A DNA stretch of 64,000 nt, taken from the NCBI RefSeq assembly GCF_013340845.1, contig NZ_AP020335.1:186001-250000 (forward strand). The letters run 5' to 3'. A program made the translations under genes and the position numbers. The notes beneath the pieces were generated by a model. It had not been told where the DNA came from, made no database searches, and saw nothing but the letters and a program-made list of their open reading frames with translations. This document shows, piece by piece, positions 28,036 through 43,319 of this stretch; the stretch's first letter is position 1, and every line of letters starts with the position of its first letter. Source of the DNA: Hydrogenovibrio marinus (GTDB lineage: Bacteria > Pseudomonadota > Gammaproteobacteria > Thiomicrospirales > Thiomicrospiraceae).

Positions 28036-28072
28036 GACGGTCGTTAAACCTCTTACGATGCTATCGTTACGG

Positions 28073-28978
28073 TTAACCCTTGCCTTTGGTACGTGTGTTG
28101 TGAGGCTTGGCGTTCTTTTCAATAAATTGAATGATAATACTGGCGACATCTTTTCCGGAAGAGGTTTCTATGCCTTCCAATCCGGGAGAAGAGTTGACTT
28201 CCATTACCAGAGGGCCATGATTGGAGCGAAGCAAGTCAACACCGCAGACATTCAAGCCCATGACTTTTGCGGCGCGAATGGCAGTGGCTCTTTCTTCCGG
28301 CGTGATGCGAACCAGCGTCGCAGAACCGCCTTGGTGAAGATTTGAGCGGAATTCGCCTTCTTTTCCTTGGCGCTTCATGGCGGCAATCACTTTGCCACCC
28401 ACCACGAAACAGCGGATATCCGCGCCTTTGGCTTCAGAGATGAATTCCTGTACCAGAATGTTCGCTTTTAAACCATGGAATGCCTGAATAACACTTTGCG
28501 CCGCAGAATGGGTTTCTGCCAGTACCACGCCAACGCCTTGCGTACCTTCCAATAGTTTTATCACTACCGGCGCACCGCCAACTTCCTGCAACAGGTCGTC
28601 GACATCATCCGGCGAGTGTGCAAATCCTGTGACCGGCAAGCCGATGCCTTTTCTGGAAAGTAATTGCAGACTACGAAGTTTGTCGCGGGAACGCGCGATG
28701 GCAACGGATTCGTTCAAGGGATAAACCCCCATCATTTCAAACTGACGCAATATCGCCGTGCCATAAAAAGTGATGGAAGCGCCGATACGCGGAATCACCG
28801 CGTCGAAATCGTCCAACACGCGACCTTGGTAGTGGATGTGCGGGTTGTTAGACGTGATGTTCATATAACAACGTAGCGCATCGATAACCTCGACTTCATG
28901 TCCACGTTCTTCAGCGGCTTTTACCAAGCGCTGCGTGGAGTAAAGTTCCGGTTCACGGGATAAAATGGCAATTTTCAT
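28073..28978 (-). CDS. rimK: RimK family alpha-L-glutamate ligase
   Basis: A 301-residue ATP-grasp ligase that adds glutamate to the C-terminus of ribosomal protein S6 in E. coli, or makes poly-glutamate. Visible: [57 protein letters not shown]-grasp [51 protein letters not shown] and the metal site [29 protein letters not shown] 28978 follows GAAGGATC and matches family N-termini; a 5' extension to 29020 is unlikely. Partner hydrolase downstream. Confidence 0.94.
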
Positions 28979-29259
28979 GGGCGATCCTTCAAAAACGAGT
29001 GTCGTCGATGTAGAGAACATACGACAGACGGGCAGTCAAAGTCAATTGTATCTGGTAGGGAATGCGGAAGAACCAAGGTATCTTCAGACTCCAACAAAAG
29101 GCGACGAATTATACAGCTAAAAATAAAGAGAATATAAGAGGTCACGATAAGAAATTTCTTATATTGAGAGCGCCTCCTCAAATCCCCTATGCTAGAATGT
29201 GAAAACTTAAATTTCTACGTATCTGTGATTACTTAACATCATAAAACAAAGTGGCCACT

Positions 29260-30387
29260 ATGAAACGACTACTCAAGAACTTCGCAGTTCATCACGCACT
29301 CAGCGCATCCGTGGCGATTGTCGCCTTTTCTTTTTTATTTTCGAACACCGTTTATGCCAGTAGTACCGAGCATGTTCAAGCCGTTGCCGCGGTTAAGGTG
29401 GCGCCTGCATCTCCGCAGAGTTGGCAGCTGACCGGTCAAGTCGAGAGTCGCTACGCCATTCCCTTGAGTTTCCGTGTGGGCGGACAGGTAGAGTCGAAAA
29501 CGGTTGAAGTCGGTGAAAAGGTGGCTAAGGATCAAGTACTTGCCAGTTTGGATAAGGCGGATTTGAAACTGACTTTTCAACAGGCACAAGCCAACCTAAG
29601 CAAGTCGAAAGCAGACTATGATAACGCCCAACGCGAGCGTAAGCGTTTGACCAAGATGTATGCGAATAAGCTGGTGAGTGAGCAGGATTTGCAACGCGCC
29701 GAGACAACGGAAATAGCAGCCAAACAATCCGTGTTGGCGATGCAGGCGGCACTTGAGCTGGCACAACGTCAGCTGAATTACAGTCAGCTTAAAGCCCCGG
29801 ATGACGGTGTGCTGACAAATGTGAATGTCGAAGCAGGTCAGGTGGTCTCTGCCGGGCAAGCACTGTTTACTTTGGCAACGGGCGCGCATGAAGCGGTGGT
29901 TTACCTACCTGCGAACCGTTTGCATGCCGACTTGTCTTCTGTGGAAGTGGAAGGGGTCGATCAAGCCGGAACCTGTAAGGCGGTGTTGAGAGCGAAAACC
30001 CCTGTAAACGATAACGACACTTTGCAGTACAAAGCCTATTTCACTTTGAAAGACTGTACTCAGACCTTGCCTTTGGGCGCGGTGGTTGAGTTGAACGTAA
30101 AACAGCAGTTGAACGATTTGATGCAAGTGCCGGTGAGCGCGCTGATTGATAGTGGTAACCAACCGAGAGTTTGGTTGATCAAAGACAACAAGGTATATGG
30201 TGTTGCGGTCAAAGTGGTCTCCATGGGCGCAGAGTTTGCCGTGATTCAAGCATTGCAGCCGCAGGATTTGCCTTTGGGTTCTCAGGTCGTGGCGGATGGC
30301 GTTCATCTTCTGACGGAAGGTTCTGCCGTTAAGATTGTTGCAGACAATGTCGAAAATGCCGACTCCGGGTTGGTTGAGGCAATGTAA
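29260..30387 (+). CDS. RND efflux periplasmic adaptor (membrane fusion protein)
   Basis: About 375 residues with an N-terminal signal segment (to ~residue 34, SNTVYAS), lipoyl halves (PLSFRVGGQVESKTVEVGEKVAKDQVLASLDKADL and LKAPDDGVLTNVNVEAGQVVSAGQALFTL), an alpha-hairpin (about 95-155), and beta-barrel/MPD regions. It is the HlyD/AcrA type that links an RND pump to a TolC channel. ATG 29260 is preferred over GTG 29251. It overlaps the pump start by one base (TAATG). Confidence 0.92.
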   Translation: MKRLLKNFAVHHALSASVAIVAFSFLFSNTVYASSTEHVQAVAAVKVAPASPQSWQLTGQVESRYAIPLSFRVGGQVESKTVEVGEKVAKDQVLASLDKADLKLTFQQAQANLSKSKADYDNAQRERKRLTKMYANKLVSEQDLQRAETTEIAAKQSVLAMQAALELAQRQLNYSQLKAPDDGVLTNVNVEAGQVVSAGQALFTLATGAHEAVVYLPANRLHADLSSVEVEGVDQAGTCKAVLRAKTPVNDNDTLQYKAYFTLKDCTQTLPLGAVVELNVKQQLNDLMQVPVSALIDSGNQPRVWLIKDNKVYGVAVKVVSMGAEFAVIQALQPQDLPLGSQVVADGVHLLTEGSAVKIVADNVENADSGLVEAM

Positions 30388-33300
30388 TGATGCAGAAATG
30401 GAATCTATCGGAGTTAGCCGTTAGGCACAAAACGCTGACGCTGTATTTCATTATCGTTTCTCTGATTATCGGTACCTTGGCCTTTTTCAAATTGGGTCGT
30501 GCAGAAGACCCGAGTTTTACGCTGAAAATGGCGGTGGTGTCTGCCAAATGGCCGGGTGCGACGCCTGAACAGATGCAGAATCAGGTCGCGGACTTGATTG
30601 AACGTAAACTCCAGCAGATAGATTATTTCGACAAGGTGGAAACCACGGCAAGACCCGGTGAGGTCAATATGCTGGTGATGTTTAAGGACTATACGCCGCC
30701 TTCAAAGGTCGATGACCTTTTCTATCAGGTGCGAAAGCGCATGCTTGACCTGAATGGTCAATTTCCTAAAGGAGTGCAAGGTCCTTTCGTTAATGATGAT
30801 TTCGCTGATGTCTATTTCACGCTCTATGCCCTGACGCAAGGCAATCTTTCTTATTCCGACTGGGTGAAAACCGCTGAATCAACACGCAACGCGCTACTGA
30901 AAGTGCCGGGTGTCGAGAAAGTACGACTGCTCGGTGAGCAACAACAACAGATTTCGATTGAGTTCGATACCAAAAAACTCGCCAAGCTAGGCTTGACGCA
31001 ATCACAAATTTTATCGGTATTGCCGCAGTACCAAACAGTGGTGGCATCCGGGTTTATTGAAACCCAAGGCCCAAGAGTCTATGTCCGTAGTGGCGCTATG
31101 GCTCAATCTGTTGATCAGCTTAAAAAGCTACCAATTGCCGTACAGGGACAAGTCATTCACCTAGGCGACCTAGCCAAGATCACCAAAGGGTTTGTTTCGC
31201 CAAGCCCCTATATTATCCGCAACGAAGGCAAGCAAACATTGATGCTCGGCGTGGTGATGAAACCCGGCGGAAATGGATTGGCGTTGTCGGATAATCTGAG
31301 TAGCTTTTCACAGCAATGGGAACAAAACCTACCTAAAGGTGTGAAACTGGAAAAAGTGACCAACCAAGGCGATGCTATTTCACTCGCGGTCAATACCTTC
31401 CAGTTGAAGTTCCTGATTGCCGTACTGGTTGTCATGGCGGTGAGCTTCCTGACCTTGGGGATGAGAGCAGGTGTAGTGGTTGCCTTGGCGATTCCACTAA
31501 CCTTGGCACTGACCTTTTTCCTGATGCAATTGACCGGTAAGAACCTTGACCGCATCACCTTGGGTGCTTTGATTTTGGCGCTGGGACTGTTGGTGGATGA
31601 TGCCATTATCTCCATTGAAATGATGTTGGTGAAGATGGAAGAGGGCATGGCCCGTATCAAAGCGGCGGCTTTTGCCTGGACAGTGACGGCATCGCCTATG
31701 TTGTTCGGTACCTTGGTGACGATTATGGGGTTTGTGCCGATTGGGTTTGCGCAATCCAATGTTGGGGAATACACCGAGAATATTTTCTGGATACTCGCGT
31801 TTTCTTTGCTGCTGTCTTGGCTGGTGGCGGTGACGTTCACGCCTTACCTCGGCTATAAGCTATTGCCAGAACCGAAAAAACTGCATACCGAAAACTCGCT
31901 GCCACACAATGTGTTCAGTCGCCGTTTATCGTCGATGGTTGTCTGGTGCGTGGGGAACCGCAAAAAGGTGGTGTTGATTACCGTCGCACTTTTCATTCTG
32001 TCTGTGGTCGGTATGGCGACTAAGGTGGAAAAACAGTTCTTCCCGACCTCAGACCGCCCTGAGCTTTTGATAGACATCAACCTGCCGGAAGGCACCAGTC
32101 AACAAGTGACCAATGCCATGGCATTGAAGGTTGAAGACTATGTTAAGCAACAGCCGGAAGTCAAAACGCTTTCAAGTTACATCGGGCAGGGCGCACCGCG
32201 TTTCTTTATGGCATTGAATCCTGAACTGCCGGATCCGGCTTTTGCCAAGATTATTGTGGTCACGAAAAATGCCGAAGAACGCAAAAAGCTAAGACACAGA
32301 CTGGAAGCCTACGTGGAGCAAGGTCATTTCAGTGCCGCACGTGTTAGGGTGCATGCATTGCTTTATGGGCCACCGGTTATTTGGCCAGTCACCTTCAGAG
32401 TGATGGGGGACAATGTTGATGAGTTGCGCAAACTGGGTGAGCAGGTGCGTCAAATCATGGCGAAGAACCCGAACATCCGTACCGCGAATCTGGAGTGGGG
32501 CAATAAAACGCCAGTGGTTGATTTGCAATACAACCTGGATCGTATGGCGAAGTTAGGGCTGACACCGATCAGCTTGTCACAACAGCTACAAGGGGCTTTG
32601 CAAGGCGAGATTCAAGCCGATGCATTTGAAGGGACTCGTCGTATCGACTTGACGAGTTATTCCACGCAAGAGCGCCAGGCATTGCTGTCTCGTTTGAAGA
32701 GTATCACGGTGGAAACCGCTCAAGGCAAGAAACTGCCTTTGGAGCAAGTCGCTACCGTCAAAATCGGCTTTGAAGACCCAGTATTGAAGCGCCGTACCCG
32801 TACGCAGTTTATCAACGTCAATGCCGAAGTGGAAGGTGCACAACCGCCGGATGTCACCATGGCGATTTGGAAAGAGTTGCAGCCGATGATTAAGACCCTG
32901 CCAGCGGACTATCATATAGAAATCGGTGGATCGGTCGAGGAGTCTGGTAAGGCTCAAGCCTCTATCCAAAAAATGATGCCGGTGATGGTCTTCTTGATGG
33001 TGACTTTGATTATGCTCAATATGCAAAGCTTCCTGGGAACCTTCATGGTGCTGATTACCGCACCACTTGGCTTGATTGGCGCAGTCGCCGCCATGCTGGT
33101 TTTCTCTCAACCATTTGGCTTTGTTGCCAACTTGGGGATGATTGGTCTTGCTGGGATTCTGATGCGCAATACCCTGATTTTGGTCGGGCAAATCAATGAA
33201 AACCAGAAACAAGGGATGGAGCCAAAAGAAGCCTTGATTGATGCCACGTTACGACGTGCTCGCCCCGTGTTGTTGACCGCCTTGGCAGCGATATTGGCGT

Positions 33301-33434
33301 TTATTCCACTCACCACCAATACCTTCTGGGGGCCATTGGCATTCGTGTTGATTGGCGGGATTGGTGTTGGGACATTATTGACGCTGTTGTTTATCCCTGC
33401 ACTTTACGCACTGTGGTATCGCGTTAAGGTCTAG
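30387..33434 (+). CDS. RND family efflux pump inner membrane protein
   Basis: A 1015-residue AcrB-type proton antiporter. It starts LSELAVRHKTLTLYFIIVSLIIGTLAFFKLGRAEDPSF and has two sets of about six helices separated by large periplasmic loops. The proton relay is visible in ILALGLLVDDAIISIEMMLVKMEEG (Asp-Asp in TM4), and the end has GMIGLAGILMRNTLILVGQINE and RARPVLLTALAAILAFIPLTTN. The AEDPSF opening is typical of the non-AcrB proteobacterial branch often called YegN/MdtB-like or VmeB. No TolC gene is adjacent. The inverted repeat terminator follows. Confidence 0.93.
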   Translation: MMQKWNLSELAVRHKTLTLYFIIVSLIIGTLAFFKLGRAEDPSFTLKMAVVSAKWPGATPEQMQNQVADLIERKLQQIDYFDKVETTARPGEVNMLVMFKDYTPPSKVDDLFYQVRKRMLDLNGQFPKGVQGPFVNDDFADVYFTLYALTQGNLSYSDWVKTAESTRNALLKVPGVEKVRLLGEQQQQISIEFDTKKLAKLGLTQSQILSVLPQYQTVVASGFIETQGPRVYVRSGAMAQSVDQLKKLPIAVQGQVIHLGDLAKITKGFVSPSPYIIRNEGKQTLMLGVVMKPGGNGLALSDNLSSFSQQWEQNLPKGVKLEKVTNQGDAISLAVNTFQLKFLIAVLVVMAVSFLTLGMRAGVVVALAIPLTLALTFFLMQLTGKNLDRITLGALILALGLLVDDAIISIEMMLVKMEEGMARIKAAAFAWTVTASPMLFGTLVTIMGFVPIGFAQSNVGEYTENIFWILAFSLLLSWLVAVTFTPYLGYKLLPEPKKLHTENSLPHNVFSRRLSSMVVWCVGNRKKVVLITVALFILSVVGMATKVEKQFFPTSDRPELLIDINLPEGTSQQVTNAMALKVEDYVKQQPEVKTLSSYIGQGAPRFFMALNPELPDPAFAKIIVVTKNAEERKKLRHRLEAYVEQGHFSAARVRVHALLYGPPVIWPVTFRVMGDNVDELRKLGEQVRQIMAKNPNIRTANLEWGNKTPVVDLQYNLDRMAKLGLTPISLSQQLQGALQGEIQADAFEGTRRIDLTSYSTQERQALLSRLKSITVETAQGKKLPLEQVATVKIGFEDPVLKRRTRTQFINVNAEVEGAQPPDVTMAIWKELQPMIKTLPADYHIEIGGSVEESGKAQASIQKMMPVMVFLMVTLIMLNMQSFLGTFMVLITAPLGLIGAVAAMLVFSQPFGFVANLGMIGLAGILMRNTLILVGQINENQKQGMEPKEALIDATLRRARPVLLTALAAILAFIPLTTNTFWGPLAFVLIGGIGVGTLLTLLFIPALYALWYRVKV

Positions 33435-33445
33435 ATTAATGCTTA

Positions 33446-33489
33446 CCCCAACCTGGCAGATTTTAGACAAAAAACTACCAGGTTGGGGG
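33446..33489. terminator. Bidirectional terminator from an inverted pair of the dispersed repeat
   Basis: Minus unit CCCCAACCTGGCAGATTTT (33446-33464) and plus unit AAAACTACCAGGTTGGGGG (33471-33489) are only six bases apart. The stem is about 14-19 bp with one or two mismatches. It sits between the stops of the RND pump (+) and the RLAN ligase (-). Confidence 0.75.
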
Positions 33490-33502
33490 CGTTTGAGCGA
33501 GG

Positions 33503-34969
33503 TTACTTGCCTTGCTCTTCCAAACGTCGAAGGATTTCTTTCATGATTTCCAAATAGAGCTGTTCGCCGAGAAACAGGTCTTCCACGCCTGAGTCGATAC
33601 TTGGGTTGTCATTGACTTCAATCACCACCACTTTGTCGCCGCTCTGCTTCAAGTCCACGCCGTAGAAGCCATCACCAATCAATTTGGTGGCTTTCAGTGC
33701 GACATCAATCACTTTTTTCGGCGCTTCATAGGTTGGCAGGGTGTCGAAGTTACCCGACTCGGTTTCGCCTTCGCCATGATTGTAAATCTGCCAATGTCCT
33801 TGAACCATATAGTAGCGGCTGGCGTACAACGGCTTGTTGTTGAATACGCCGATGCGCCAATCGTATTCGGTGTACATATATTCTTGGGCAAGCAGCAATG
33901 AAGACTCTGCCAGCAAGCGTTTGGCTTCAACGTCTAGCTCCTGCTCGTCCTTGACCTTGATTACGCCACGGGAGAAAGACCCGTCTGGAATTTTCAATAC
34001 CATCGGAAAGCCGATTTCCGTTGCCAGCTCTTTCAAGTTGCTTTCGGTTGCATGGCTGAGAATCAGCGTTTTTGGTGTCGGCACCTTGTGATTGTTCAAT
34101 AAATCCGCCAGATAAACCTTGTTGGTACACCGCAAAATAGAGGTTGGGTCGTCGATTACGACAAGTCCTTCCGCCTCTGCTTTCTTGGCGAACTTATAAG
34201 TGTGGTGGTCGACCGAGGTGGTTTCACGGATAAACAAGGCGTCGAATTCAGCAAGGCGGACATAGTCCTTCTTGGTGATAAACTCGGTGCTGATGCCCAA
34301 ACTTTTGGCGGCCTTCACAAACTGCGCAAGCGCTTGCGGGTCGCTTGGCGGTAAAGGGTCGTCCGGATTGGTCAAAATCGCCATGTCGTAACGGTATTGT
34401 TTACGCGCTTTCGGCTTACGCCAAAGTTGCAAGCTGAACTGTTCGAACGCTTGTGCAAAAGCTTCCTGCTCCGCAGGATCGGTCAGGGCTTTCAAAGCCA
34501 AGGGTTTGATCTGTTTGATTTGCCATTGGTGTTTGAATGTCAGCGTGATTTCCAGCAAAGGCGAAGGCAGTTTTTCGAAGATGAGTTGCGCCAATTTCAC
34601 CGTGCTTTTCTCGCTGGTTTTGCCAAACCAGCAACGGAAGGTTTTGGTTTCGCCTTCCTCTCCTTTTGGCAAAGACGACATCGCCTTCTGCGTGTTGTCG
34701 AGTAGCAGTTTGGAAAGCGATTTGTTGCCAAGGTTGTTGATGGTCGTTACCGACGGCAATACATGGTGGTTGCGGGCTTCGGCCAGCAACGAGCAATAGT
34801 ACCCGGTTTTCAGGTAACGGTAATCACGACACAGGTTGATGACACGAATGCGCTTTTTGGAGGATTCCTTGACGCGCTGCAAGTAGTCGTCAAACGTAAT
34901 GACGTCGGGTGTCGGATAGTAGGGCTGCCAGTCTTTAAGGTTTTCGACGACAACGTAAAAATGACTCAT
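33503..34969 (-). CDS. RimK-like ATP-grasp ligase with N-terminal RLAN domain
   Basis: A 488-residue protein. Residues 1-~170 fit the RLAN domain found before some RimK-like enzymes (FYVVVENLKDWQPYYP, VINLCRDYRYLKTGYYCSLLAEARNHHVLPS). The ATP-grasp part follows: FDALFIRETTSVDHHTYKFAKKAEAEGLVVIDDP, FPMVLKIPDGSFSRGVIKVKDE, LLAQEYMYTEYDWRIGVFNNKPLYASRYYM and the metal site FYGVDLKQSGDKVVVIEVNDNPSIDSGVED. It should form an amide bond between a carboxylate and an amino compound, possibly a peptide. It diverges from an M14-like peptidase and a GNAT-C39 fusion. Confidence 0.9.
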   Translation of the reverse strand: MSHFYVVVENLKDWQPYYPTPDVITFDDYLQRVKESSKKRIRVINLCRDYRYLKTGYYCSLLAEARNHHVLPSVTTINNLGNKSLSKLLLDNTQKAMSSLPKGEEGETKTFRCWFGKTSEKSTVKLAQLIFEKLPSPLLEITLTFKHQWQIKQIKPLALKALTDPAEQEAFAQAFEQFSLQLWRKPKARKQYRYDMAILTNPDDPLPPSDPQALAQFVKAAKSLGISTEFITKKDYVRLAEFDALFIRETTSVDHHTYKFAKKAEAEGLVVIDDPTSILRCTNKVYLADLLNNHKVPTPKTLILSHATESNLKELATEIGFPMVLKIPDGSFSRGVIKVKDEQELDVEAKRLLAESSLLLAQEYMYTEYDWRIGVFNNKPLYASRYYMVQGHWQIYNHGEGETESGNFDTLPTYEAPKKVIDVALKATKLIGDGFYGVDLKQSGDKVVVIEVNDNPSIDSGVEDLFLGEQLYLEIMKEILRRLEEQGK

Positions 34970-35201
34970 GGGCTAATCTTCTCCTGAAGAAAAACGCGTA
35001 AATGGATTGGCTTGTTTAGGGTTGGTTGTAGCGAAGAAAATCGCACTAAAAAAGAGTTGCTAGATGTGCAAAATTTTACGCGCTTTTTTTCAAAATAAAA
35101 TAGATAATTGCATCTGAAACGAAAGATTTTTTCTTTCGATTACTAGGTCTCGTTCCCGTCGATTTTTTTAAGCCATTTCTCGGTTTTTTGTTGAGGTTTT
35201 C

Positions 35202-36329
35202 ATGTCTCATCCGTTACTCGATTTACAAGCGCCGATGGTGTTGTCGGTTTTCAAAAACAGTTATTTGGACGCTCGCGAATGCTTTCAGCAAACACTGGCT
35301 GATATTCCGCAATCACTCATCAAGCAGTCGGAGCGTTTCGTGCATCCATTGACTGGGCCGGCAGGCGAAGAGCTGGCATGCGAAACCGTGCTGCTCAGCC
35401 AGAGCGAGCAACCGGAAACGATTTTGGTTGTGATTTCCGGAACCCATGGTGTAGAAGGGGTAACCGGCTCGGCGATACAAGCGGACATCTTGCCTTTGTT
35501 GGTGGATGTGTTGCAAAAATCTGCCAGGTTGGGGGTGATGCTGATTCATGCGATGAACCCGTGGGGATTCGCTTGGGTGCGCCGTGGTGATCACCAAGGG
35601 ATAGATTTAAACCGAAATTTCATTGATTTTGACCAGCCGGTACCGATGAATGAAGACTACGCCCAATATCAAAGTCAGCTGCACGAAGCACGTTGGTTGG
35701 AAGTGTCTGATTTCAGTGGTTTGTGGCAAGGGGTATCGTTTGCTGACTTCATCGAGCAGATTACACGCGGGCAGTATCAAGACCCAACCGGGTTGTTTTA
35801 TGGCGGAAATGCGCCTAGCTGGTCACGGCAAGTGCTGGAAACCATCACCCGACATGCGGTTTTTGAGTCGGCGCACAACATTAATGTTATTGACTGTCAC
35901 ACAGGGCTAGGGCCATATGGTTATGGTGAAGTGATTAATGATCATTTTCCAAATACGGCAGGGTTCGATTGGGTCAACCGTCTGTATGGCGCGAATGCCT
36001 GCGCGGCATTGTTGGGAGAATCCTGTTCGGCACCAAAATCCGGGTTGATTGACTACCATTGGCAAAAAGTGATTGGCGGTCGAGGGTGCTTTGTCACCTT
36101 GGAGTTCGGTACCTATTCGGTGGATAAATTGATTAGTGAACTATTAAGAGAACAAATTTACCAAAACACGCTTCCCCAAGGAGTGGAGAGAAATATCAAG
36201 GCAGAGCCTGTGAGGCTGATGCAGGCGTTCTTTTACCCACGAGAAAGTAGTTGGCAGCAACAGGTATTGTTCCGTGGCAGACAAGTAGTGAATATGGCGT
36301 TGCAAGGCGTGTTGGGGAGTGAGCAATAA
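35202..36329 (+). CDS. M14-like zinc carboxypeptidase, DUF2817 family
   Basis: A 375-residue protein without signal peptide. Metal and substrate motifs of the DUF2817/M14 group: VVISGTHGVEGVTGSAIQ (His82 and Glu85), AWVRRGDHQGIDLNRNFIDF (arginine near 138) and NVIDCHTGLGPYGYGEVIND (third zinc ligand), then FVTLEFGTY, a candidate catalytic glutamate. Residues 106-111 (KSARLG) are encoded by an insertion-like copy of the dispersed repeat, between ligands and after a helix. It overlaps the GNAT-C39 gene by one base (TAATG), so they are co-translated. Confidence 0.85.
   Translation: MSHPLLDLQAPMVLSVFKNSYLDARECFQQTLADIPQSLIKQSERFVHPLTGPAGEELACETVLLSQSEQPETILVVISGTHGVEGVTGSAIQADILPLLVDVLQKSARLGVMLIHAMNPWGFAWVRRGDHQGIDLNRNFIDFDQPVPMNEDYAQYQSQLHEARWLEVSDFSGLWQGVSFADFIEQITRGQYQDPTGLFYGGNAPSWSRQVLETITRHAVFESAHNINVIDCHTGLGPYGYGEVINDHFPNTAGFDWVNRLYGANACAALLGESCSAPKSGLIDYHWQKVIGGRGCFVTLEFGTYSVDKLISELLREQIYQNTLPQGVERNIKAEPVRLMQAFFYPRESSWQQQVLFRGRQVVNMALQGVLGSEQ
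35516..35535 (+). repeat. Dispersed 19-nt repeat inside the DUF2817 gene
   Basis: AAAATCTGCCAGGTTGGGGG is identical to the copy at 14698 but read in another frame, giving (Q)KSARLGV at residues 105-112. It is a single plus copy, with the gene intact on both sides. Confidence 0.8.
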
Positions 36330-37444
36330 TGTCTGACAATCGACCGACAATCCGCGCTGCGATTCCGAAGGACTTAGACGCGTTGCTGAGGTTAGAGCAG
36401 GTTTGTTTTACCGAAGATCGTTTATCGCGGCGTAGTTTTGTCAACTTGCTCAAGCCCGGGCCACATAGTTGTTTGGTGTTAGAGCAGGACGGGGAACTAT
36501 TGGGGTATGTGTTGATGCTTTATCGCACCGGTACCCAGTTGGCGAGGCTTTATTCAATTGCCGTGCATCCGCAACAGCAAGGGAAAGGCTTGGCCAAAAT
36601 GTTATTGGAAAGTGCGGAAAACGAGGCCGAAGAACGTCAATGTGTTTATCTGAGATTGGAGGTCAAAGTTACCAACCAGGCAGCGTTGAAACTCTATGAA
36701 CAGCGTGGTTACAAACACCTGAATCGCATTCCTCAATATTACGAAGATGGTGAAGATGCATTCCGTATGGAAAAACGTTTGGTGGCAAAGGCGTTGAAAA
36801 CCATGCCGCCGAAACCCTATTACGAGCAAACGACGGACTTCACTTGTGGCCCGTCGTCTTTGATGATGGCGCTCAAAACCTTAAAGCCTGACTATGAAAT
36901 GTCTCGCGCCGAAGAGTTGCAGATATGGCGTGAAGCCACCACCATCTTCATGACTTCGGGTCATGGCGGTTGCTCACCCCATGGTTTGGCGCTGAGTGCT
37001 TGGCGACGAGGTTTGAAAGTGCATCTTTATACCAACATAGAAGGCGTGCCTTTTGTCGATGGTGTGCGTGATGAACATAAAAAAGCGGTCATTGAGCTGG
37101 TGCACAACGATTTCATCCGTCAGATTTCGGAAACCGATATCGACTTGACCGTCAAACAGCTTGAAGCGCATGACTTGATGGATATTCTTGGACAAGGTTT
37201 ACCGGTATTGGCGTTGATCAGTACTTGGCGGTTGAATCGTAACAAGGCACCGCACTGGGTTTACGTTACTGCCGCAGATGAGGGGTTTGTCTATATCAAT
37301 GATCCAGATCACAATGACCAGCCGCACCTTAGCCAGACGGACTTTCAGCAGATTCCCATCACGCGGAAAATGTTTATGGAAATGGCTCGCTTCGGTCAGC
37401 AAAAGCTTCGGGCAATCTTGGTTTTGTCATCAGACGAAGTATGA
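36329..37444 (+). CDS. GNAT acetyltransferase fused to a C39-like peptidase
   Basis: A 371-residue fusion. Residues 1-~150 are a RimI-like N-acetyltransferase (IRAAIPKDLDALLRLEQVCF, LARLYSIAVHPQQQGKGLAKMLL with the acetyl-CoA loop, LRLEVKVTNQAALKLYEQRGY). Residues ~165-371 are a papain-like C39 domain: QTTDFTCGPSSLMMALKTL (Cys173), PHWVYVTAADEG (His309) and YINDPDHND (Asp/Asn). C39 enzymes cleave double-glycine leader peptides, but this one has no transporter domain. Co-location with an RLAN ligase and M14-like peptidase is a recurrent arrangement for peptide modification; the substrate is unknown. Confidence 0.88.
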   Translation: MSDNRPTIRAAIPKDLDALLRLEQVCFTEDRLSRRSFVNLLKPGPHSCLVLEQDGELLGYVLMLYRTGTQLARLYSIAVHPQQQGKGLAKMLLESAENEAEERQCVYLRLEVKVTNQAALKLYEQRGYKHLNRIPQYYEDGEDAFRMEKRLVAKALKTMPPKPYYEQTTDFTCGPSSLMMALKTLKPDYEMSRAEELQIWREATTIFMTSGHGGCSPHGLALSAWRRGLKVHLYTNIEGVPFVDGVRDEHKKAVIELVHNDFIRQISETDIDLTVKQLEAHDLMDILGQGLPVLALISTWRLNRNKAPHWVYVTAADEGFVYINDPDHNDQPHLSQTDFQQIPITRKMFMEMARFGQQKLRAILVLSSDEV

Positions 37445-37888
37445 TCCATAGTGTTTTTTAATGCATGGAACGCCTGTTACTGAGATTTTCTATTTGTTTT
37501 TATTCGCCATTTGATAAAGAATTTTCTTAAAGTGATGTGATTACGAACTGTGTAATTTGATGTTTTTCAGGCAGATTTTTGCACCGTTTAGTTGTGAAAT
37601 TGTCATGCAAGCGGCAACTAAAATTGTCGTCGGTCGAGACTTTTTTTCAAAAAAAATTTAAAAACCGCAAAAAAAATTACCAAAAATCACGCATTTTTGA
37701 CTCAATTATCCTTTTGAATCTATGGATTGATTCTCTTTCCAAATCAATAGGTTATCTTTATTCGACTTCGTTTATATATAGAGGTCGCTCAATCTTTTCT
37801 ATCGTTTCTTTCAATTAGTCAATAGGTTGGCTTGTTCATAACATTGCACTTGAATTTATTTCAACTCCAAAAACAAGGAGAGCATTTT
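37445..37888 (+). promoter_or_regulatory. Control region of the carboxysome operon
   Basis: A 444-bp gap with no convincing gene (an open frame at 37579-37818 is low-complexity). It contains strong A-tracts (37645-37690), which should bend DNA, and TTGACT at 37697 and TTGATT at 37727 as possible -35 elements without clear -10 partners. A LysR-type operator (T-N11-A) is plausible but I cannot assign one. AAGGAG at 37875-37880 is the cbbL ribosome site. Confidence 0.5.
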
Positions 37889-39304
37889 ATGGCAAGTAAA
37901 ACGTTTGACGCTGGTGTACAAGATTACCAGCTGACTTATTGGACACCAGACTACACTCCTCTAGATACAGATCTATTGGCGTGTTTCAAAGTTGTCCCAC
38001 AAGAAGGTGTACCGCGTGAAGAAGCAGCAGCGGCTGTAGCGGCAGAATCATCAACTGGTACTTGGACGACAGTTTGGACTGACTTGTTGACAGACATGGA
38101 GTTCTACAAAGGTCGTGCGTACAGAATCGAAGACGTACCTGGTGATAAGAACGCATTCTATGCATTCATCGCTTACCCACTAGACCTATTTGAAGAAGGT
38201 TCTGTGGTTAACGTATTGACTTCATTGGTTGGTAACGTATTCGGATTTAAAGCGGTTCGCTCTCTTCGTCTTGAAGATTTGCGTTTCCCAATCGCGTTTA
38301 TCAAAACTTGCGGTGGACCACCATCAGGGATCCAAGTTGAGCGTGATAAGTTGAACAAATACGGTCGTCCTATGTTGGGTTGTACTATCAAGCCAAAACT
38401 AGGTCTTTCAGCTAAGAACTATGGTCGTGCGGTTTATGAGTGTCTTCGTGGCGGTCTAGATTTGACCAAAGATGATGAAAACATCAACTCTCAACCATTC
38501 CAACGTTGGAGAGATCGTTTTGAATTCGTAGCAGAAGCAGTAGACAAAGCAACAGCGGAAACGGGTGAGCGTAAAGGTCACTATTTGAACGTTACTGCAG
38601 GTACTGTTGAAGAAATGATGAAACGTGCTGAGTTCGCTAAGGAACTAGGTCAACCAATCATCATGCATGACTTCTTGACTGCTGGTTTCACAGCTAACAC
38701 GACTTTGGCTAACTGGTGTCGTGAGAACGGTATGTTGCTTCACATTCACCGTGCAATGCACGCCGTAATCGACCGTAACCCTCTTCACGGTATTCACTTC
38801 CGTGTATTGGCTAAGTGTCTACGTTTGTCAGGTGGTGACCACCTACATACAGGTACGGTTGTTGGTAAGTTGGAAGGTGACCGCGCTTCTACGCTAGGTT
38901 TCGTTGACCAACTTCGTGAATCTTTCGTTCCAGAAGATCGCTCACGTGGTGTTTTCTTCGACCAAGATTGGGGTTCAATGCCAGGTGTTATGGCGGTTGC
39001 TTCAGGTGGTATCCACGTATGGCACATGCCAGCATTGGTTAACATCTTTGGTGATGACTCAGTTCTTCAGTTTGGTGGTGGTACACAAGGTCACCCAGGC
39101 GGTAACGCTGCTGGTGCGGCTGCTAACCGTGTTGCGTTGGAAGCTTGTGTTAAGGCACGTAACGAAGGTCGTGATCTAGAAAGAGAAGGTGGAGACATCT
39201 TGAGAGAAGCTGCTCGTACGAGTAAAGAACTGGCAGTAGCTCTAGAAACTTGGAAAGAGATCAAGTTCGAGTTCGATACCGTTGACAAATTGGACGTTCA
39301 ATAA
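37889..39304 (+). CDS. cbbL: Form IA RuBisCO large subunit (carboxysomal)
   Basis: The 471-residue large subunit fixes CO2 onto ribulose bisphosphate. It starts [23 protein letters not shown] and has the active-site [17 protein letters not shown] with the carbamylated lysine, [30 protein letters not shown], loop 6 region and [34 protein letters not shown]. An upstream ATG at 37832 is rejected because AAGGAG fits ATG 37889. Sequence style ([38 protein letters not shown]) is form IA. First gene of the cso operon; codon use favours high expression. Confidence 0.98.
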
Positions 39305-39350
39305 GAGCGTTCAGAGCTAGATTGATCCTAAAAAATACAAGGAGATTAAG

Positions 39351-39692
39351 ATGTCAATTCAAACAGATGATTACCGTACAAAGTACACACTGGAAACGTT
39401 CTCGTTCCTTCCAGAGTTCACGGCTGATGAAATCTACGACCAAATCGTTTACATCATCAACCAAGGTTGGACACCTGCTCTTGAGCATGAAGCGCCTGAA
39501 GCTGCTTCTTCTCACTACTGGGGTATGTGGAAACTTCCAATGTTTGGTACACGTGATCCAAACGCGGTACTAGCTGAAATCGACCAATGTCGTGCAGCTT
39601 ACCCAAATCACATGATTCGTTTGATCGGTTATGACAACTACACTCAGTGCCAAGGGCATAACTTTGTAGTTTACCGTCCTCGCGGAATGTAA
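39351..39692 (+). CDS. cbbS: RuBisCO small subunit
   Basis: A 113-residue form I small subunit: [79 protein letters not shown] and FVVYRP. It starts 46 nt after cbbL with AAGGAG. Carboxysomal small subunits bind the N-terminal repeats of CsoS2 (encoded next), which recruits the enzyme to the shell. Confidence 0.97.
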
Positions 39693-39754
39693 TTCGCACG
39701 GAACGAATAACGAGTGATTAAACGAGTCATAAAGACGAAATAGGAGGCTTTAGC

Positions 39755-41725
39755 ATGAGTAACAATGCTCAAAGCGGTCGAGCTGCAGCCATTGCGCGCC
39801 GCAAAGCACAGGTAAAAGGAAAGGGTGTTCAAGCATCAGCTACTCCGGTAGCGACGCGTCAACCAGCACCTGCGCCAGAACCGATTGTGACTGCGGCAGC
39901 TCCTGCACCTTCGCAGCCATCTCGTCCTCGTCGTGAAGTGTCTTCAGCTGCATCTGCTCCGGCATCTGCAGCGGGACGCGACGCGGCGAAGCAGAAGAGG
40001 CAGCAGCAGAAGAGCGGGAAAAGCGCAACACAAGCAGCAAAGCCGACGCCTCACCCTAAGACTAGAGCAAAGCAACAGTCTGAAGAGCCGATTGTCGAAC
40101 CTCGTCAGACTAGATCGGAACAACCAGCCAAGCGACAAGAGCGTCGTACGGCAGTAAAACCGGAAGCTACAGTGCAATCCAGCGGTCGTCTTCAATCGAA
40201 GGCATACCGTCAGGCACAAGTGAAAGGTAAGGTTGGCCAAACTGCGTTCAAATCTAAGGGCGGTAGTCAGTCAGGAGCCAAAGCGAAGTTAGCTAATCCG
40301 GACGCTTCTTCACGCGAAATTGCGAAGCAAATTCGTGCTGAGAAATGTTCACGAGGCAAAGTCTGTTCAACAGGCGCTTCGAGACCAACTCGTCCACCAA
40401 GAAACACAGAGTTGCCACAAAAAGTTGGTGAGTCTGAAACCCTAAGTGGTCAAACCGTTTCTGGTACGCAAGTGGGTCAAGGCAAGAAAAAAATGACAGG
40501 TGCAGAAACAGGTGCATGTCAATTGGTAAGCGGTACAGAGTACTTGGGTGCGGAAGAGTTCAACACTAACTGTAGTTCTCAACCAGCAGCCAAACCTGCA
40601 AAAGTGACGCAAACACAAACCACTCGTGGGCAGATTGTTAGCGGTTCAACAGGCGTAGGTCGTGCTGAAAAAATGACGGGCAATGAGCCTGGAACTTGTT
40701 CAGCGGTAACCGGTACAGAGTACTTACCAGCGGATCAAGGCCAAACGTTTTGTGGCACAGCCTCTGTAAAAGCTAAGGCAGCCGGCTTCTCGGTAATGTC
40801 TCAGCCAGCACAGAAAAGCGGTGAAAAAATCACTGGTGGCGGTAGTCGTAAGTCTCAATCGATAACGATTAAACCGAAAGCACCAGCGAAAGCACCACAA
40901 AAGGTAATGTCTTCGCAAACTGCAAAAGGCAATACCACGACTGGAACGCAAGTTGGTCGATTGGAAACAGTAACTGGGGGCGATAAAGGTGCCTGTAAAT
41001 CAGTAACTGGGACTGGTTACCAAAGTGTGGAAGAGGCAGAAACGCTATGCAAGATGCCTGCAGTCGATACGGCAACAAAGGTAACGGCTTCTGGAACCCG
41101 CGGTGGACAGAAAGTAACTGGTGATCGCAGCGGTGCATACTACGGTATGACTGGTGCGGAAGCAGGTGACTGTCAAGCGATTACAGGAACGCCATATACC
41201 GGTTCGGAACAATCTCAATTTTGCTCGGTAGATCAGCAAAATGAGATGAAAGTACGCCAACCAAGAGGGATGAATCCTTCTATCTCAGGTGTACAGCCAG
41301 GACCAGTAGGTCTAACCGGTGCGCAGAAGGGTGCATGTGAATTGGTAACAGGAACCTATTACCAAGGAACTGATCAGACAGCTATGTTGTGTGGTCCTTC
41401 AAGCGCAGCTCAGCCAGGGGAGTCGGATTTTCCGATGACAATGGCACAAGCGGCAGCAGAACCAATGGTTGAAGCTCCAGCTGAACAAGGTACGAAAATT
41501 ACCGGTGACGGCTGGGACAGAGGCTCAAAAGTGACAGGAACAGACGGCCCTTGGGCGGCGCAGCGTAACGCGTCAATCAAAGGTTCAGTGAGACAGTCAC
41601 CGATGGGTGCAGCACAGTTCAACGCTGGCGTGATGAGTGAAGTACCTATGAGTCCGATTACCGGTTCATCTGGTAACACGGAAACGGGTGCAAAAGTTAC
41701 CTTGTCCGGTGGTGCAAGAGCATAA
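39755..41725 (+). CDS. csoS2: Carboxysome scaffold protein CsoS2
   Basis: A 656-residue disordered scaffold that links RuBisCO to the shell. The N-terminal ~220 residues are K/R/A/Q-rich with repeated SGRxxxxxRRKAQ- and ALQSKAYRQAQVKGK-type RuBisCO-binding elements. The middle holds repeats of the form SGTQVG...TG...G.C..V.GTEYL.....C (about residues 230-490). The C-terminus has PSISGVQPGPVGLTGAQKGACELVTGTYY, ITGDGWDRGSKVTGTDGPWA and further anchor repeats. Shorter than the 800-900 residues of many CsoS2 proteins. An A7 run at 40487-40493 starts exactly on a codon. Confidence 0.95.
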   Translation: MSNNAQSGRAAAIARRKAQVKGKGVQASATPVATRQPAPAPEPIVTAAAPAPSQPSRPRREVSSAASAPASAAGRDAAKQKRQQQKSGKSATQAAKPTPHPKTRAKQQSEEPIVEPRQTRSEQPAKRQERRTAVKPEATVQSSGRLQSKAYRQAQVKGKVGQTAFKSKGGSQSGAKAKLANPDASSREIAKQIRAEKCSRGKVCSTGASRPTRPPRNTELPQKVGESETLSGQTVSGTQVGQGKKKMTGAETGACQLVSGTEYLGAEEFNTNCSSQPAAKPAKVTQTQTTRGQIVSGSTGVGRAEKMTGNEPGTCSAVTGTEYLPADQGQTFCGTASVKAKAAGFSVMSQPAQKSGEKITGGGSRKSQSITIKPKAPAKAPQKVMSSQTAKGNTTTGTQVGRLETVTGGDKGACKSVTGTGYQSVEEAETLCKMPAVDTATKVTASGTRGGQKVTGDRSGAYYGMTGAEAGDCQAITGTPYTGSEQSQFCSVDQQNEMKVRQPRGMNPSISGVQPGPVGLTGAQKGACELVTGTYYQGTDQTAMLCGPSSAAQPGESDFPMTMAQAAAEPMVEAPAEQGTKITGDGWDRGSKVTGTDGPWAAQRNASIKGSVRQSPMGAAQFNAGVMSEVPMSPITGSSGNTETGAKVTLSGGARA

Positions 41726-41744
41726 CTAGAAATTGGGTGTATTG

Positions 41745-43319
41745 ATGAACAAGTTGAAACAAACACATCGTCAAAGGTCATTGTTTTGGAAGCCGATTGC
41801 TCCAAACCCTCAATGGCTACAAAAGCAGGCGCAACCACAAACTGCTCATGGTGCGACTGAGATTGTAGCTGAGGATAGAGTTCAAGCTTCGATGACATTG
41901 GCAGGCACCCATGCTTTGGTTAATGAAGCACAAAACGAATTGTTGCGTCGCTACGAAGTTGAAATCAAAGCACGTTTCGATGATATCGAAGGTGTTCTGA
42001 AAGAGATTTTGGCGCAGCAAGGCAAAACGGATTTTGCTGGTTGGGCTAACCAACAATTATTTGCAAAGTTGGGTGTAAAGCTTACAGAAGAAGAATGGTT
42101 GTCTGGATTGAATATGCAATCCCAGAAAGCGTTTCAGACGCTGTATGCCAAAACCCTCTTTGCACAATTTTTAAGAATGTCGGAAGACTTCTATATCAAT
42201 GATCCTCTTGCGGGTCAGAGAACTCAAGAAGCCGAACGCATTTTTAAACAAGCGGGATTTCACGCAGTAGGTGTTGCACCTTGTGCGGATGGACGTCTTG
42301 CGCATTTGATTAGTTATGTACTCAGACTGCCTTACGATGCGGTCAGAAGAAAGGCCCATGCGGGTGCTTTGTTCGACATCAGCGAAAGTGTTAGAAACTG
42401 GGTGTTTATAGAACACACGCGGTTCAGAGAAGGTAAGCCAAATTCGGCTGAAGAACCGACGCGTTACTTAAAGATTGCGGTGTATCACTTTTCGAAAGCC
42501 GACCCAACACATCAGGGTTGTGCAGCACACGGGAGTGATGACCAAAAAGCAGCGGAGGCTGCATTAACAAAACTCAAAGATTTTAGACAGGCAATTGAAA
42601 ACCGTTTCGGTTGTGGGTCAACAGTTCAAACCTTGTTGATTGGTATGAATACCGATGACGACAGTTTGAAGATCCATATTCCAAACGAACAAGGCAAGGT
42701 GTGTTTGAACCGCTTTGTTGAAACCGACAAGTTATATCAGCAAACGGCTGGTTTGTCGGCAGAACAGGCAAAGCAAGCGATTGAGAAAGTAATCGATGAT
42801 TGTAATCTCAACCAAAGTTCAACCACACCACAGCCTGGCGTGAACGCGCTGATTGCTTGGTTGATTGCGAATAACTTTTCGCAGATTGCATACGTCAATC
42901 GCTTTGAAAACGGTTGTTACAGCGATATTGGCCATGCAGAAAGGTTTATTGGGGTGGGTAATGGCTTTGATGAAGTACAACTTCGCAATCTGAGCTATTA
43001 CAGCTTCCTTGATACGGTTGAAGAAGGTGTGAATGACGTGGATGTCGGTATCAAGATCTTTAAAGGTCTGAATGTCAAAAAAGGCTTACCGATTCCAATC
43101 ATTGTTCGCTGTGATTATGACGGACGTGTTCCAGGCTCTAAAGATAGAGCGGAAGCAAAAGCCATACGCATAGAGAAAGCTTTACATAATCGTTATCAGG
43201 AGTTGTCGGTATCAGGCTTGTTACAAACCATGCCGACCCTAAGAGATTTTACCGGTTGTAAGCCGGCTGAAAAACTACCCAACCTGGCAGATTCTTCTGC
43301 CTCGCAAAGAACCGCTTAG
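41745..43319 (+). CDS. csoSCA: Carboxysomal carbonic anhydrase CsoSCA
   Basis: A ~524-residue epsilon/beta-type carbonic anhydrase that converts bicarbonate to CO2 inside the carboxysome. The zinc ligands can be placed: Cys180 in VAPCADGRLAHL, His248 in KIAVYHFSKA and Cys259 in HQGCAAHGSDD; the 11-residue His-Cys spacing agrees with the Halothiobacillus enzyme. The Asp-Arg pair is in CADGR. The frame opens at TTG 41733; ATG 41745 is preferred. The last ~14 residues include KLPNLADS, coded by a copy of the dispersed repeat. Confidence 0.95.
   Translation: MNKLKQTHRQRSLFWKPIAPNPQWLQKQAQPQTAHGATEIVAEDRVQASMTLAGTHALVNEAQNELLRRYEVEIKARFDDIEGVLKEILAQQGKTDFAGWANQQLFAKLGVKLTEEEWLSGLNMQSQKAFQTLYAKTLFAQFLRMSEDFYINDPLAGQRTQEAERIFKQAGFHAVGVAPCADGRLAHLISYVLRLPYDAVRRKAHAGALFDISESVRNWVFIEHTRFREGKPNSAEEPTRYLKIAVYHFSKADPTHQGCAAHGSDDQKAAEAALTKLKDFRQAIENRFGCGSTVQTLLIGMNTDDDSLKIHIPNEQGKVCLNRFVETDKLYQQTAGLSAEQAKQAIEKVIDDCNLNQSSTTPQPGVNALIAWLIANNFSQIAYVNRFENGCYSDIGHAERFIGVGNGFDEVQLRNLSYYSFLDTVEEGVNDVDVGIKIFKGLNVKKGLPIPIIVRCDYDGRVPGSKDRAEAKAIRIEKALHNRYQELSVSGLLQTMPTLRDFTGCKPAEKLPNLADSSASQRTA
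43278..43296 (-). repeat. Degenerate dispersed repeat in the csoSCA C-terminal codons
   Basis: ACCCAACCTGGCAGATTCT is the reverse complement of AGAATCTGCCAGGTTGGGT, two to three changes from the consensus. It is read as PNLADS in the tail of CsoSCA, 20 nt before the stop, and is a minus-oriented single copy. Confidence 0.65.

Follow-up and report, generated by a model that had tools for sequence, protein, structure and literature searches.

The window, a 64,000-nucleotide stretch of Hydrogenovibrio marinus DNA, carries at 33503-37444 a gene for an ATP-grasp ligase and, divergent from it, two overlapping genes for a putative zinc peptidase and for an acetyltransferase fused to a cysteine hydrolase. 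All three ORFs are intact and keep their catalytic residues. The features are as follows.

33446..33488, no strand: perfect 11-bp inverted repeat (33446-33456/33478-33488) with a 21-base loop, seen in the sequence
33503..34969, minus strand: RLAN ligase gene (ORF list), encoding an RLAN domain and a complete LysX/RimK-type ATP-grasp enzyme
34970..35201, no strand: 232-bp intergenic gap separating the ligase gene from the divergent two-gene unit
35202..36329, plus strand: DUF2817 gene (PF10994), M14-like zinc carboxypeptidase/amidohydrolase of a module-specific clade
36327..36331, plus strand: TAATG, a 1-base overlap of the DUF2817 stop and the GNAT-C39 start, seen in the sequence
36329..37444, plus strand: GNAT-C39 fusion gene (GNAT + DUF3335), 371-aa product
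36329..36814, plus strand: RimI-like GNAT domain, residues 1-162 (TIGR01575)
36815..37426, plus strand: C39-like papain-type cysteine hydrolase domain, residues 163-366 (PF11814)

The first-pass annotation had described a ligase gene diverging from two TAATG-coupled genes, and we recovered the ORFs at exactly these positions; the overlap likely couples translation of DUF2817 and GNAT-C39. No sigma-70-like site was found in the divergent gap, and neither promoter-like sites (2 vs 5.5 expected from shuffled sequence) nor terminator-like sites (7 vs 6.6) were enriched. Rfam gave no match over 33000-38500 at the gathering threshold. A role in anti-phage defence was rejected, as PADLOC returned 0 families for the three proteins at E 0.001. 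The earlier remark that no exporter is visible nearby is not literally so: an HlyD/RND pair (29251-33434) ends 68 bp from the ligase gene. This pair is probably unrelated to the module, because it is convergent with the ligase gene, the inverted repeat, a probable transcription-unit boundary, lies between them, and only four other loci (L099, L130, L133 and L162, of which L130 is a near-identical relative) have a related RND gene grouped close to RLAN.

The ligase is a whole LysX/RimK-type enzyme (residues ~194-485) with an extra N-terminal domain. Residues 27-173 match PF14401 (RLAN) at 161.2 bits (Pfam cut-off 25) and a RimK-type ATP-grasp domain scores 44.6 bits (Pfam cut-off 21), which places the protein in the family that fuses RLAN to ATP-grasp. 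In its structure model (pLDDT 88.4), residues 194-485 match ArgX, LysX and RimK with VIA Z ~28 (27-28 to RimK); the fold-match lists are filled by the ATP-grasp part, not the RLAN domain, and include structures that, by their titles, have LysW or RpsF bound as protein acceptor. K284, K326, D439, E451 and N453 are invariant among 46 sequences. By score the ligase falls short of both the RimK S6--glutamate ligase equivalog NF007764 (27.9 bits vs the required 331) and the RimK family TIGR00768 (97.5 vs 143.4), and where the window's RimK carries KR...FRSNLH, the RLAN proteins have an invariant H-W-Q-I region. The idea that RLAN is a duplicated pre-ATP-grasp domain was rejected, with hhalign probabilities of 1% (RLAN vs the rest of the protein) and 0.5% (RLAN-N vs the pre-ATP-grasp part).

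The GNAT domain scores 94.7 bits against the rimI equivalog TIGR01575, above its cut-off of 86.4, and its residues 5-155 align with RimI (2cnm) at a structural Z of 23.1. Its closest structures are RimI- and ARD1/Naa10-type N-terminal acetyltransferases; the fold-match lists for the fusion protein cover the GNAT part, not the C39 part. Among 44 sequences E111 is invariant and Y123 is conserved in at least 90%. Because a second, stand-alone RimI-like gene at C1:827667 scores 96.7 bits against TIGR01575, the module GNAT is probably, as far as sequence can tell, not the enzyme acetylating ribosomal protein S18. The protease part matches PF11814 (DUF3335, "Peptidase_C39 like") at 286.1 bits (cut-off 25), and its Q167, C173, H309 and D325, the papain-type catalytic residues, are invariant in 44 sequences. 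PF03412, the exporter-linked C39 family to which cutting after GG belongs, and transporter domains gave no match in the 371-aa protein at E 0.001; an ABC-exporter peptidase C39 would carry PF03412 and an ABC transporter in one chain. The fusion of an acetyltransferase with a C39-type protease, as first described, is therefore real, but its protease belongs to PF11814. DUF3335 has been classified in PMC10318531.

The suggestion that the protease processes a double-glycine leader peptide fits poorly with these family assignments and with our search for a precursor. From 147 loci we clustered 11,625 ORFs of 22-130 aa situated no more than 4.5 kb from RLAN, and the 25 largest clusters inspected contained no module-linked small ORF. 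The largest cluster comprised low-complexity frames from GC-rich loci; most of the others consisted of Marinobacter frames lying within neighbouring genes or antisense to them, and one resembled ribosome modulation factor. Neither a substrate protein nor a precursor turned up close to the module; the search covered the surroundings of RLAN, and a precursor may be encoded at a distance from it or be small and confined to one lineage. We therefore regard it as very improbable that the module matures a secreted ribosomal peptide, with C39 cutting a GG leader, the ATP-grasp enzyme cross-linking in the manner of graspetides and an exporter secreting the product. The name of the C39-like domain, the RND exporter beside the module in the window and an HlyD-type gene after the module in L131 speak for such a pathway, as does the stand-alone C39 protease of a variant locus, L090, which passes PF03412 (27.8 bits, cut-off 22) although PF13529 matches it better (49.7 bits). 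Besides the protease family and the lack of a small ORF, the scarcity of RND genes near RLAN elsewhere argues against it, and so does the ligase, which resembles LysX/RimK first, the graspetide ligase PsnB ranking 41st among its fold matches.

The DUF2817 protein matches PF10994 at 268.4 bits (cut-off 23). Among 21 sequences H82, E85, D135, N137, R138 and H233 are invariant and E301 is nearly so (at least 90%); apart from D135, these correspond to the HxxE...H zinc ligands, the substrate-binding NR pair and the catalytic Glu of M14 enzymes. The protein thus has the residues of an M14 metallocarboxypeptidase, and carboxypeptidase activity is predicted. A profile search links it weakly to 4oko, 5hxd (MpaA) and 2nsm (carboxypeptidase N); a single-sequence PDB search gave no match at E 0.01. 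In the literature searched we saw no publication on the function of RLAN or DUF2817; PMC10781861 mentions DUF2817 only in a table, as the entry for a trypanosome protein.

To what extent the three genes travel together was examined in 321 genomes of the host's class, Gammaproteobacteria, 48 of which have a strong DUF3335 match. RLAN is present in 47 of these 48 (Fisher p ~1e-37), and in 44 of the 47 the two lie on the same contig, at most 2.7 kb apart. The first-pass annotation had named random distribution among related genomes as evidence against a module, and RLAN and GNAT-C39 are not randomly distributed. Its proposal of a conserved three-gene neighbourhood stands for this pair; for DUF2817 the genome-level co-occurrence is not significant (5/13 with RLAN, p = 0.13). 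All 5 co-occurring copies nevertheless sit within the module, between the other two genes in Gammaproteobacteria loci having all three, and the module copies, 28 from two or more classes, form one clade that excludes the 8 non-module copies (97/93). Most RLAN modules lack DUF2817. It is optional for the module yet dedicated to it.

The pairing extends beyond the class. A wider sample of the phylum contained 58 genomes with RLAN, from which 20 loci were chosen, 16 of them from other classes; all 20 (L239 included) have a RimI-like GNAT beside RLAN, 15 as a GNAT-C39 fusion and 5 as GNAT alone. L247 joins GNAT and RLAN-ATP-grasp in one 659-residue protein, adjoining a separate GNAT-C39 gene. GNAT stands without C39 in 7/70 class-sample loci (one of which, L109, has a broken RLAN frame), in 5/20 of the second set and in four Pseudomonas loci. 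Since these loci lack C39 and most loci lack DUF2817, neither eraser is obligatory. That unrelated genes merely sit together in this genome is hardly credible: the rarity and non-significant genome-level association of DUF2817 would agree with chance, but the neighbourhood recurs in many families and other classes, the TAATG overlap and the dedicated DUF2817 clade oppose it, and for RLAN and GNAT-C39 the counts above refute it. A neighbourhood of RLAN-type ATP-grasp and GNAT-papain-like (C39-like) genes was reportedly predicted by Iyer, Abhiman, Burroughs and Aravind in 2009 (Mol Biosyst 5:1636), so the pairing was probably already noted then; the dedicated DUF2817, the GCS2/FGase variant and the DUF155 link described below may extend it. 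Operon neighbours were rejected as further members: of 121 tightly spaced same-strand genes, 98 were kept and 69 aligned and scanned (excluding DUF155- and MATCAP-labelled genes, ORFs <100 aa and five near-duplicate Pseudomonas loci), and no Pfam family occurred in more than 3/69, CorA reaching 3/69.

One RLAN clade (14 rows, SH-aLRT 100), hereafter type 2, has the order C39-RLAN-GCS2-FGase, with GNAT and DUF2817 replaced; L090 belongs here. DUF2817 and FGase are equivalent in position only, because no profile similarity is detectable (hhalign probability 1.9%) and homology was rejected. Chemically, GCS2 is no obvious substitute for GNAT, and the products of the two architectures may therefore differ. 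DUF155 (the RMND1 family) is associated with RLAN, which occurs in 25 of 45 DUF155 genomes (p 7e-8; 8 within 4 kb) and, counted by family, in 19/30 (p 9e-5). MATCAP carboxypeptidase genes adjoin the module in 4/80 named loci; within five genes of RLAN they were found in 0/70 class-sample loci.

Since an amide ligase, an acetyltransferase and peptidases form a conserved module, they are best understood as acting together on a peptide-like substrate, and this much of the original proposal of synthesis, acetylation and trimming survives without the GG-leader role. We consider it probable (about 0.6) that the genes encode a self-contained writer-eraser module acting on the two ends of one such substrate. 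The RLAN ligase would, at the expense of ATP, couple an amino acid or amine to a carboxyl group on the substrate, the RimI-like GNAT would cap its amino end with acetyl, and the C39-like hydrolase and M14-like DUF2817 would cut amide bonds on the same substrate, either for maturation or for reversal and recycling. We infer that one substrate is common to all the enzymes, that this substrate is the end of a peptide or protein, and which way each reaction runs.

Two narrower readings are special cases of this one, and their odds overlap with it. In the first, which we consider somewhat less likely than not, the ligase would assemble a small di- or tripeptide, GNAT would acetylate it, and C39 and DUF2817 would recycle the resulting metabolite, which might be a compatible solute such as N-acetylglutaminylglutamine amide (NAGGN). 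NAGGN synthesis employs a GNAT-ATP-grasp synthetase, an amidotransferase and a peptidase, so that acetyltransferase, ATP-grasp ligase and peptidase are combined there as they are here. The L247 fusion has a similar build, type 2 pairs an ATP-grasp enzyme with GCS2, of the glutamate-cysteine-ligase family (such enzyme kinds also serve glutathione synthesis), and many holders carry marine genus names. The N-acetylglutaminylglutamine synthetase model TIGR03103 does match the window's GNAT-C39 weakly, but at 20.6 bits against a cut-off of 569, and is absent for the ligase among the matches listed (25 of 32 families); the window's domains also lie on separate proteins, and its GNAT is nearest to peptide/protein N-terminal acetyltransferases. 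Methylobacter and Pseudomonas hold the module too, so salt seems no requirement.

The second special case, a rather unlikely one in our view, is a dedicated protein modification by a second "Rim" set: N-acetylation and C-terminal extension of one protein, perhaps translational, with C39, DUF2817 and MATCAP as erasers and DUF155 as partner. It is favoured by a GNAT above the rimI cut-off despite another RimI-like gene, by the protein acceptors of LysX/ArgX/RimK, by the DUF155 co-occurrence and by human MATCAP/TMCP1, which trims the alpha-tubulin C-terminus (PMC10499314). The region unlike that of RimK (H-W-Q-I vs FRSNLH) and the absence of GNAT from type 2 count against it; in the window's own genome neither DUF155 nor MATCAP is linked to the module, and the DUF155 link alone does not imply the ribosome. 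Its most specific form, in which a RimI paralogue caps, and a RimK/LysX-like RLAN enzyme extends, a translation-machinery protein, with C39/M14/MATCAP erasers and DUF155 as membrane or ribosome partner, is improbable; if true, what the human disease protein RMND1 does biochemically could be approached through bacteria.

Known systems offer partial parallels. In the RimK/RimB system of RpsF polyglutamylation, the ligase is paired with a peptidase that removes its additions (PMC11957791). The module likewise sets a RimK-fold ligase alongside a peptidase, but its ligase has the RLAN domain and a different conserved region, GNAT is added, its peptidases are cysteine and M14-like whereas RimB is aspartic, and a separate, canonical-looking RimK is encoded in the genome (window 28073-29020). 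LysX/ArgX ligases, among the closest folds (Z ~28), join an amino acid to the carrier protein LysW, whereas no conserved small protein was found beside the module in the ORF clusters inspected. In the tubulin tail cycle TTL ligases act with MATCAP and M14-type CCP peptidases, again an ATP-grasp writer with metallopeptidase erasers; the module has no tubulin-like target, and the analogy is one of enzyme types only.

The module brings several poorly understood families, RLAN, DUF3335, DUF2817 and DUF155, together in one conserved set, in which GCS2 can stand in place of GNAT and FGase in place of DUF2817. This narrows the chemistry down to the formation and cleavage of amide bonds, probably with a single substrate. 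Through the DUF155 link the RMND1 family also becomes accessible in bacteria. The module holders include Pseudomonas simiae and Methylomonas methanica, which can be cultured and mutated, so deletion mutants combined with mass spectrometry offer a way to look for the substrate. ArgE-like M20 genes lie divergent from or near GNAT-C39 in 8/70 class-sample loci, and L075, the one such locus examined for it, has an argA-like gene; this is possibly inherited gene order and was therefore not used as evidence.

The first-pass annotation had the coordinates of the three genes exactly right, and all three reading frames are intact:

33503-34969, minus strand: RLAN ligase (488 residues) with an N-terminal RLAN domain and then a RimK-type ATP-grasp (PF14401, 161 bits; PF08443, 45 bits)
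35202-36329, plus strand: DUF2817 protein of 375 residues (268 bits)
36329-37444, plus strand: GNAT-C39 fusion of 371 residues, a GNAT domain and a C39-like cysteine hydrolase (PF11814, 286 bits)

The two plus-strand genes are indeed coupled, the DUF2817 stop overlapping the start of the fusion gene in a TAATG. The ligase is the only RLAN copy in the 2.49-Mb genome and shares 98% identity with that of the nearest named locus, which points to a probable Hydrogenovibrio. Judging by ORF translations, we take the genes after the module (37832-43319, plus strand) to have the look of a RuBisCO and carboxysome operon.

The catalytic residues of the three proteins are conserved. K284, K326, D439, E451 and N453 of the ligase are invariant in an alignment of 46 sequences. 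Among 44 aligned GNAT-C39 sequences, Q167, C173, H309 and D325, which make up a papain-type site, do not vary, E111 of the GNAT domain is invariant and Y123 is at least 90% conserved. E111 and Y123 fall within a motif common to this GNAT and the other RimI-like protein of the genome, and are presumably the counterparts of the RimI catalytic pair. In DUF2817 (n = 21), H82, E85, D135, N137, R138 and H233 never vary and E301 hardly does, which we take to be the pattern of M14 zinc carboxypeptidases. The single DUF2817 sequence gave no match to solved structures at E 0.01; its profile weakly matches 4oko (E 3e-4), 5hxd/MpaA and 2nsm/carboxypeptidase N (E 0.008).

The predicted folds point to the closest relatives of two of the proteins. 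The ligase model (pLDDT 88.4) aligns with ArgX, LysX and RimK at Z scores of 27-28 across residues 194-485 (Foldseek E 6e-17). This segment alone thus makes up a complete enzyme of the LysX/RimK type, to which the RLAN domain is an addition. The GNAT-C39 model (pLDDT 91.7) matches RimI (Z 23.1) across residues 5-155 and ARD1 (Z 22.9). Sequence searches concur, as the top matches of the GNAT domain are RimI/ARD1/Naa10-type and other N-terminal acetyltransferases, and the domain exceeds the RimI cut-off (TIGR01575, 94.7 bits against 86.4).

Conservation was assessed in 321 gammaproteobacterial genomes, covered with consistent handles by each of three profile searches (RLAN, DUF2817 and DUF3335, the C39-like family PF11814). 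RLAN is found in 70 genomes, DUF3335 in 48 and DUF2817 in 13, where presence of the latter two means more than 200 bits and weaker matches (5 more DUF3335 and 18 more DUF2817 genomes) count as absent. A random distribution of the three families, which would have refuted the proposed module, is contradicted for two of them, since 47 of the 48 DUF3335 genomes also carry RLAN (Fisher p 1e-37); for DUF2817, co-occurrence with RLAN at the genome level is not significant (5/13, p = 0.13). RLAN and DUF3335 lie on one contig no more than 2.7 kb apart in 44 of the 47 genomes; of the other three, G199 and G208 have them split between contigs, RLAN being at a contig end or close to one, and G060 has them apart inside contigs. 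In all five genomes with both DUF2817 and RLAN (the window's, G033, G094, G160 and G249), DUF2817 sits inside the module.

The 70 RLAN loci show several architectures. The fused GNAT-C39 is present in the genome for 47 and adjoins RLAN in 44, a count that includes one locus (L214) from profile-match positions, as its fusion is absent from the gene calls. In 15 loci RLAN is accompanied by a separate C39-like protease, a GCS2-family ligase, or both; the full order of this type 2 is C39–RLAN–GCS2–FGase, with FGase recognised in 12 of the 15, L099 among them. Seven loci pair RLAN with a short GNAT lacking C39; in L109, which is among these, the RLAN frame is broken up. One genome (G116) has no recognised partner. 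A search of the window's own genome returned no GCS2. In an approximate RLAN tree built by a quick method (126 proteins, left from 147 after removal of 21 near-duplicates), the 14 C39/GCS2-type rows form a single clade with SH-aLRT support of 100; approximate counts of changes over the tree are 16 for the type label, 10 for DUF2817 and 7 for DUF155. The ligase is 44% identical to the window's in a type-2 locus (L090) and 46-48% in two short-GNAT loci (L094 and L102), which suggests that the types have their core chemistry in common.

Four Pseudomonas loci (L196, L200, L202 and L209) retain a RimI-like GNAT beside RLAN with no C39 half by tblastn, an apparent loss of the C39 domain; another, L206 from P. 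simiae, has the full fusion. In the RLAN tree, L197 is placed with an uncultured gammaproteobacterium although its record bears the title Klebsiella pneumoniae MAG, a label that may be wrong.

In a second sample, taken from the whole phylum, RLAN was found in 58 of 319 genomes, and loci were fetched from 20 of these, 16 of them from other classes. A RimI-like GNAT adjoins RLAN in all 20, as a GNAT-C39 fusion in 15 and alone in 5 (one, in L239, established by translation). In L247 a single 659-residue protein carries GNAT (50-141), RLAN (203-347) and ATP-grasp (457-649), with a separate GNAT-C39 gene alongside. This fusion, the only one among the RLAN proteins of 167 loci checked, ties GNAT and ligase together directly. 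DUF2817 neighbours the module in 6 of the 20 loci and DUF155 in 5 (one and two verified, respectively); a single family (f197) supplied five of the six DUF2817 loci, which are therefore not independent.

The DUF2817 of the module, of which Methylomonas methanica is one holder, is a dedicated form. A tree built from 36 proteins separates the 28 copies found in modules (the window's and 21 others from Gammaproteobacteria, 6 from other classes) from 8 non-module copies with support of 97/93, some non-module rows having long branches; a smaller tree gave the same split (23 against 8, support 95/95). The window's ligase and DUF2817 both group with those of L079, which belongs to a different family, and of the unclassified gammaproteobacterial MAG L131; an RLAN profile search found none in G053, G192 and G297, which represent three further genera of the family to which the window belongs. 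The module thus seems to move as a unit, by inheritance or transfer, with DUF2817 repeatedly lost or gained; the counts are compatible with either.

Across the architectures, sequence similarity predicts one amide-forming ligase with a second amide-forming enzyme, GNAT or GCS2, and in most loci one or two amide-breaking enzymes as well. We propose a writer–eraser set that works on both termini of a peptide-like substrate, in which the RLAN ligase would extend the carboxyl end, the RimI-like GNAT would acetylate the amino end, and the C39-like and M14-like hydrolases would trim or reverse these additions. Gene linkage and, for GNAT and ligase, the one fusion suggest that the enzymes share a substrate, and the nearest relatives of these two suggest that it is the terminus of a peptide or protein; the direction that we give to each reaction is inferred. 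A free acetylated peptide and a modified protein are both live readings of the product. RimK with RimB offers a precedent for such a pair (PMC11957791). Maturation of a leader peptide, with the C39 domain cutting after double glycine as first suggested, is a poor reading, because the window's protease falls outside the exporter-linked family (PF03412), the surroundings of the module yielded no precursor, and the RND pump close by converges on the ligase gene and is seldom near the module elsewhere. The stand-alone protease of L090, which does pass the PF03412 cut-off, speaks for it; this match and the L247 fusion pull in opposite directions, bear on different readings and leave the relative likelihoods as they were.

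Iyer et al. reportedly predicted many ligase–peptidase neighbourhoods in 2009 and named RLAN there. The fusion of DUF3335 to GNAT is attributed to that work in PMC10318531, and DUF2817 is mentioned as a table entry in PMC10781861; our literature search found no description of the function of RLAN or DUF2817. Possible additions to the 2009 predictions are the dedicated DUF2817, the variant with GCS2 and FGase, and the association with DUF155.

DUF155 (RMND1 family) exceeds its cut-off in 45 of the 321 class genomes, and RLAN is present in 25 of these against 45 of the 276 others (p 7e-8). Counted by family, 19 of 30 DUF155 families have RLAN (p 9e-5, assuming 173 families in the sample). Eight genomes have the two within 4 kb of each other, and a further two have them at 7 kb; in the window's genome DUF155 is unlinked to the module (contig C1, 34231), with a CorA gene two genes away (L256). 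A CorA gene also follows RLAN in G060 (L127). In nine Pseudomonas loci the gene immediately after RLAN belongs to a single sequence cluster, of which the one member checked (L183) is CorA-like (L183, L185, L193, L195, L198, L204, L206, L207 and L209).

A human MATCAP-family carboxypeptidase trims the tubulin C-terminus (PMC10499314). Of 80 named loci, four (L131, L132, L133 and L156) have MATCAP next to the module, and in none of the 70 class-sample loci does it lie within five genes of RLAN. The window's genome encodes an FGase–MATCAP fusion beside a glutathione-synthetase-like ATP-grasp (L255, 4423-7510; C1, about 1938.9-1942.0 kb), unlinked to the module, which makes a third ligase–amidohydrolase pair. 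Another, 4.5 kb from the module (26986-29020, minus strand), consists of a canonical-looking RimK (NF007764, 485.7 bits against a cut-off of 331) whose gene overlaps that of an AstE/AspA-type deacylase, and is followed by a short MscS-like channel gene (26358-26951).

Eight of the 70 class-sample loci (L075, L076, L080, L081, L121, L122, L214 and L225) have an ArgE-like M20 gene that diverges from GNAT-C39 or lies near it, with an argA-like gene also in L075. Twelve Marinobacter loci, L146 and L151 among them, share a conserved small ORF some 3 kb from RLAN that presumably resembles ribosome modulation factor.
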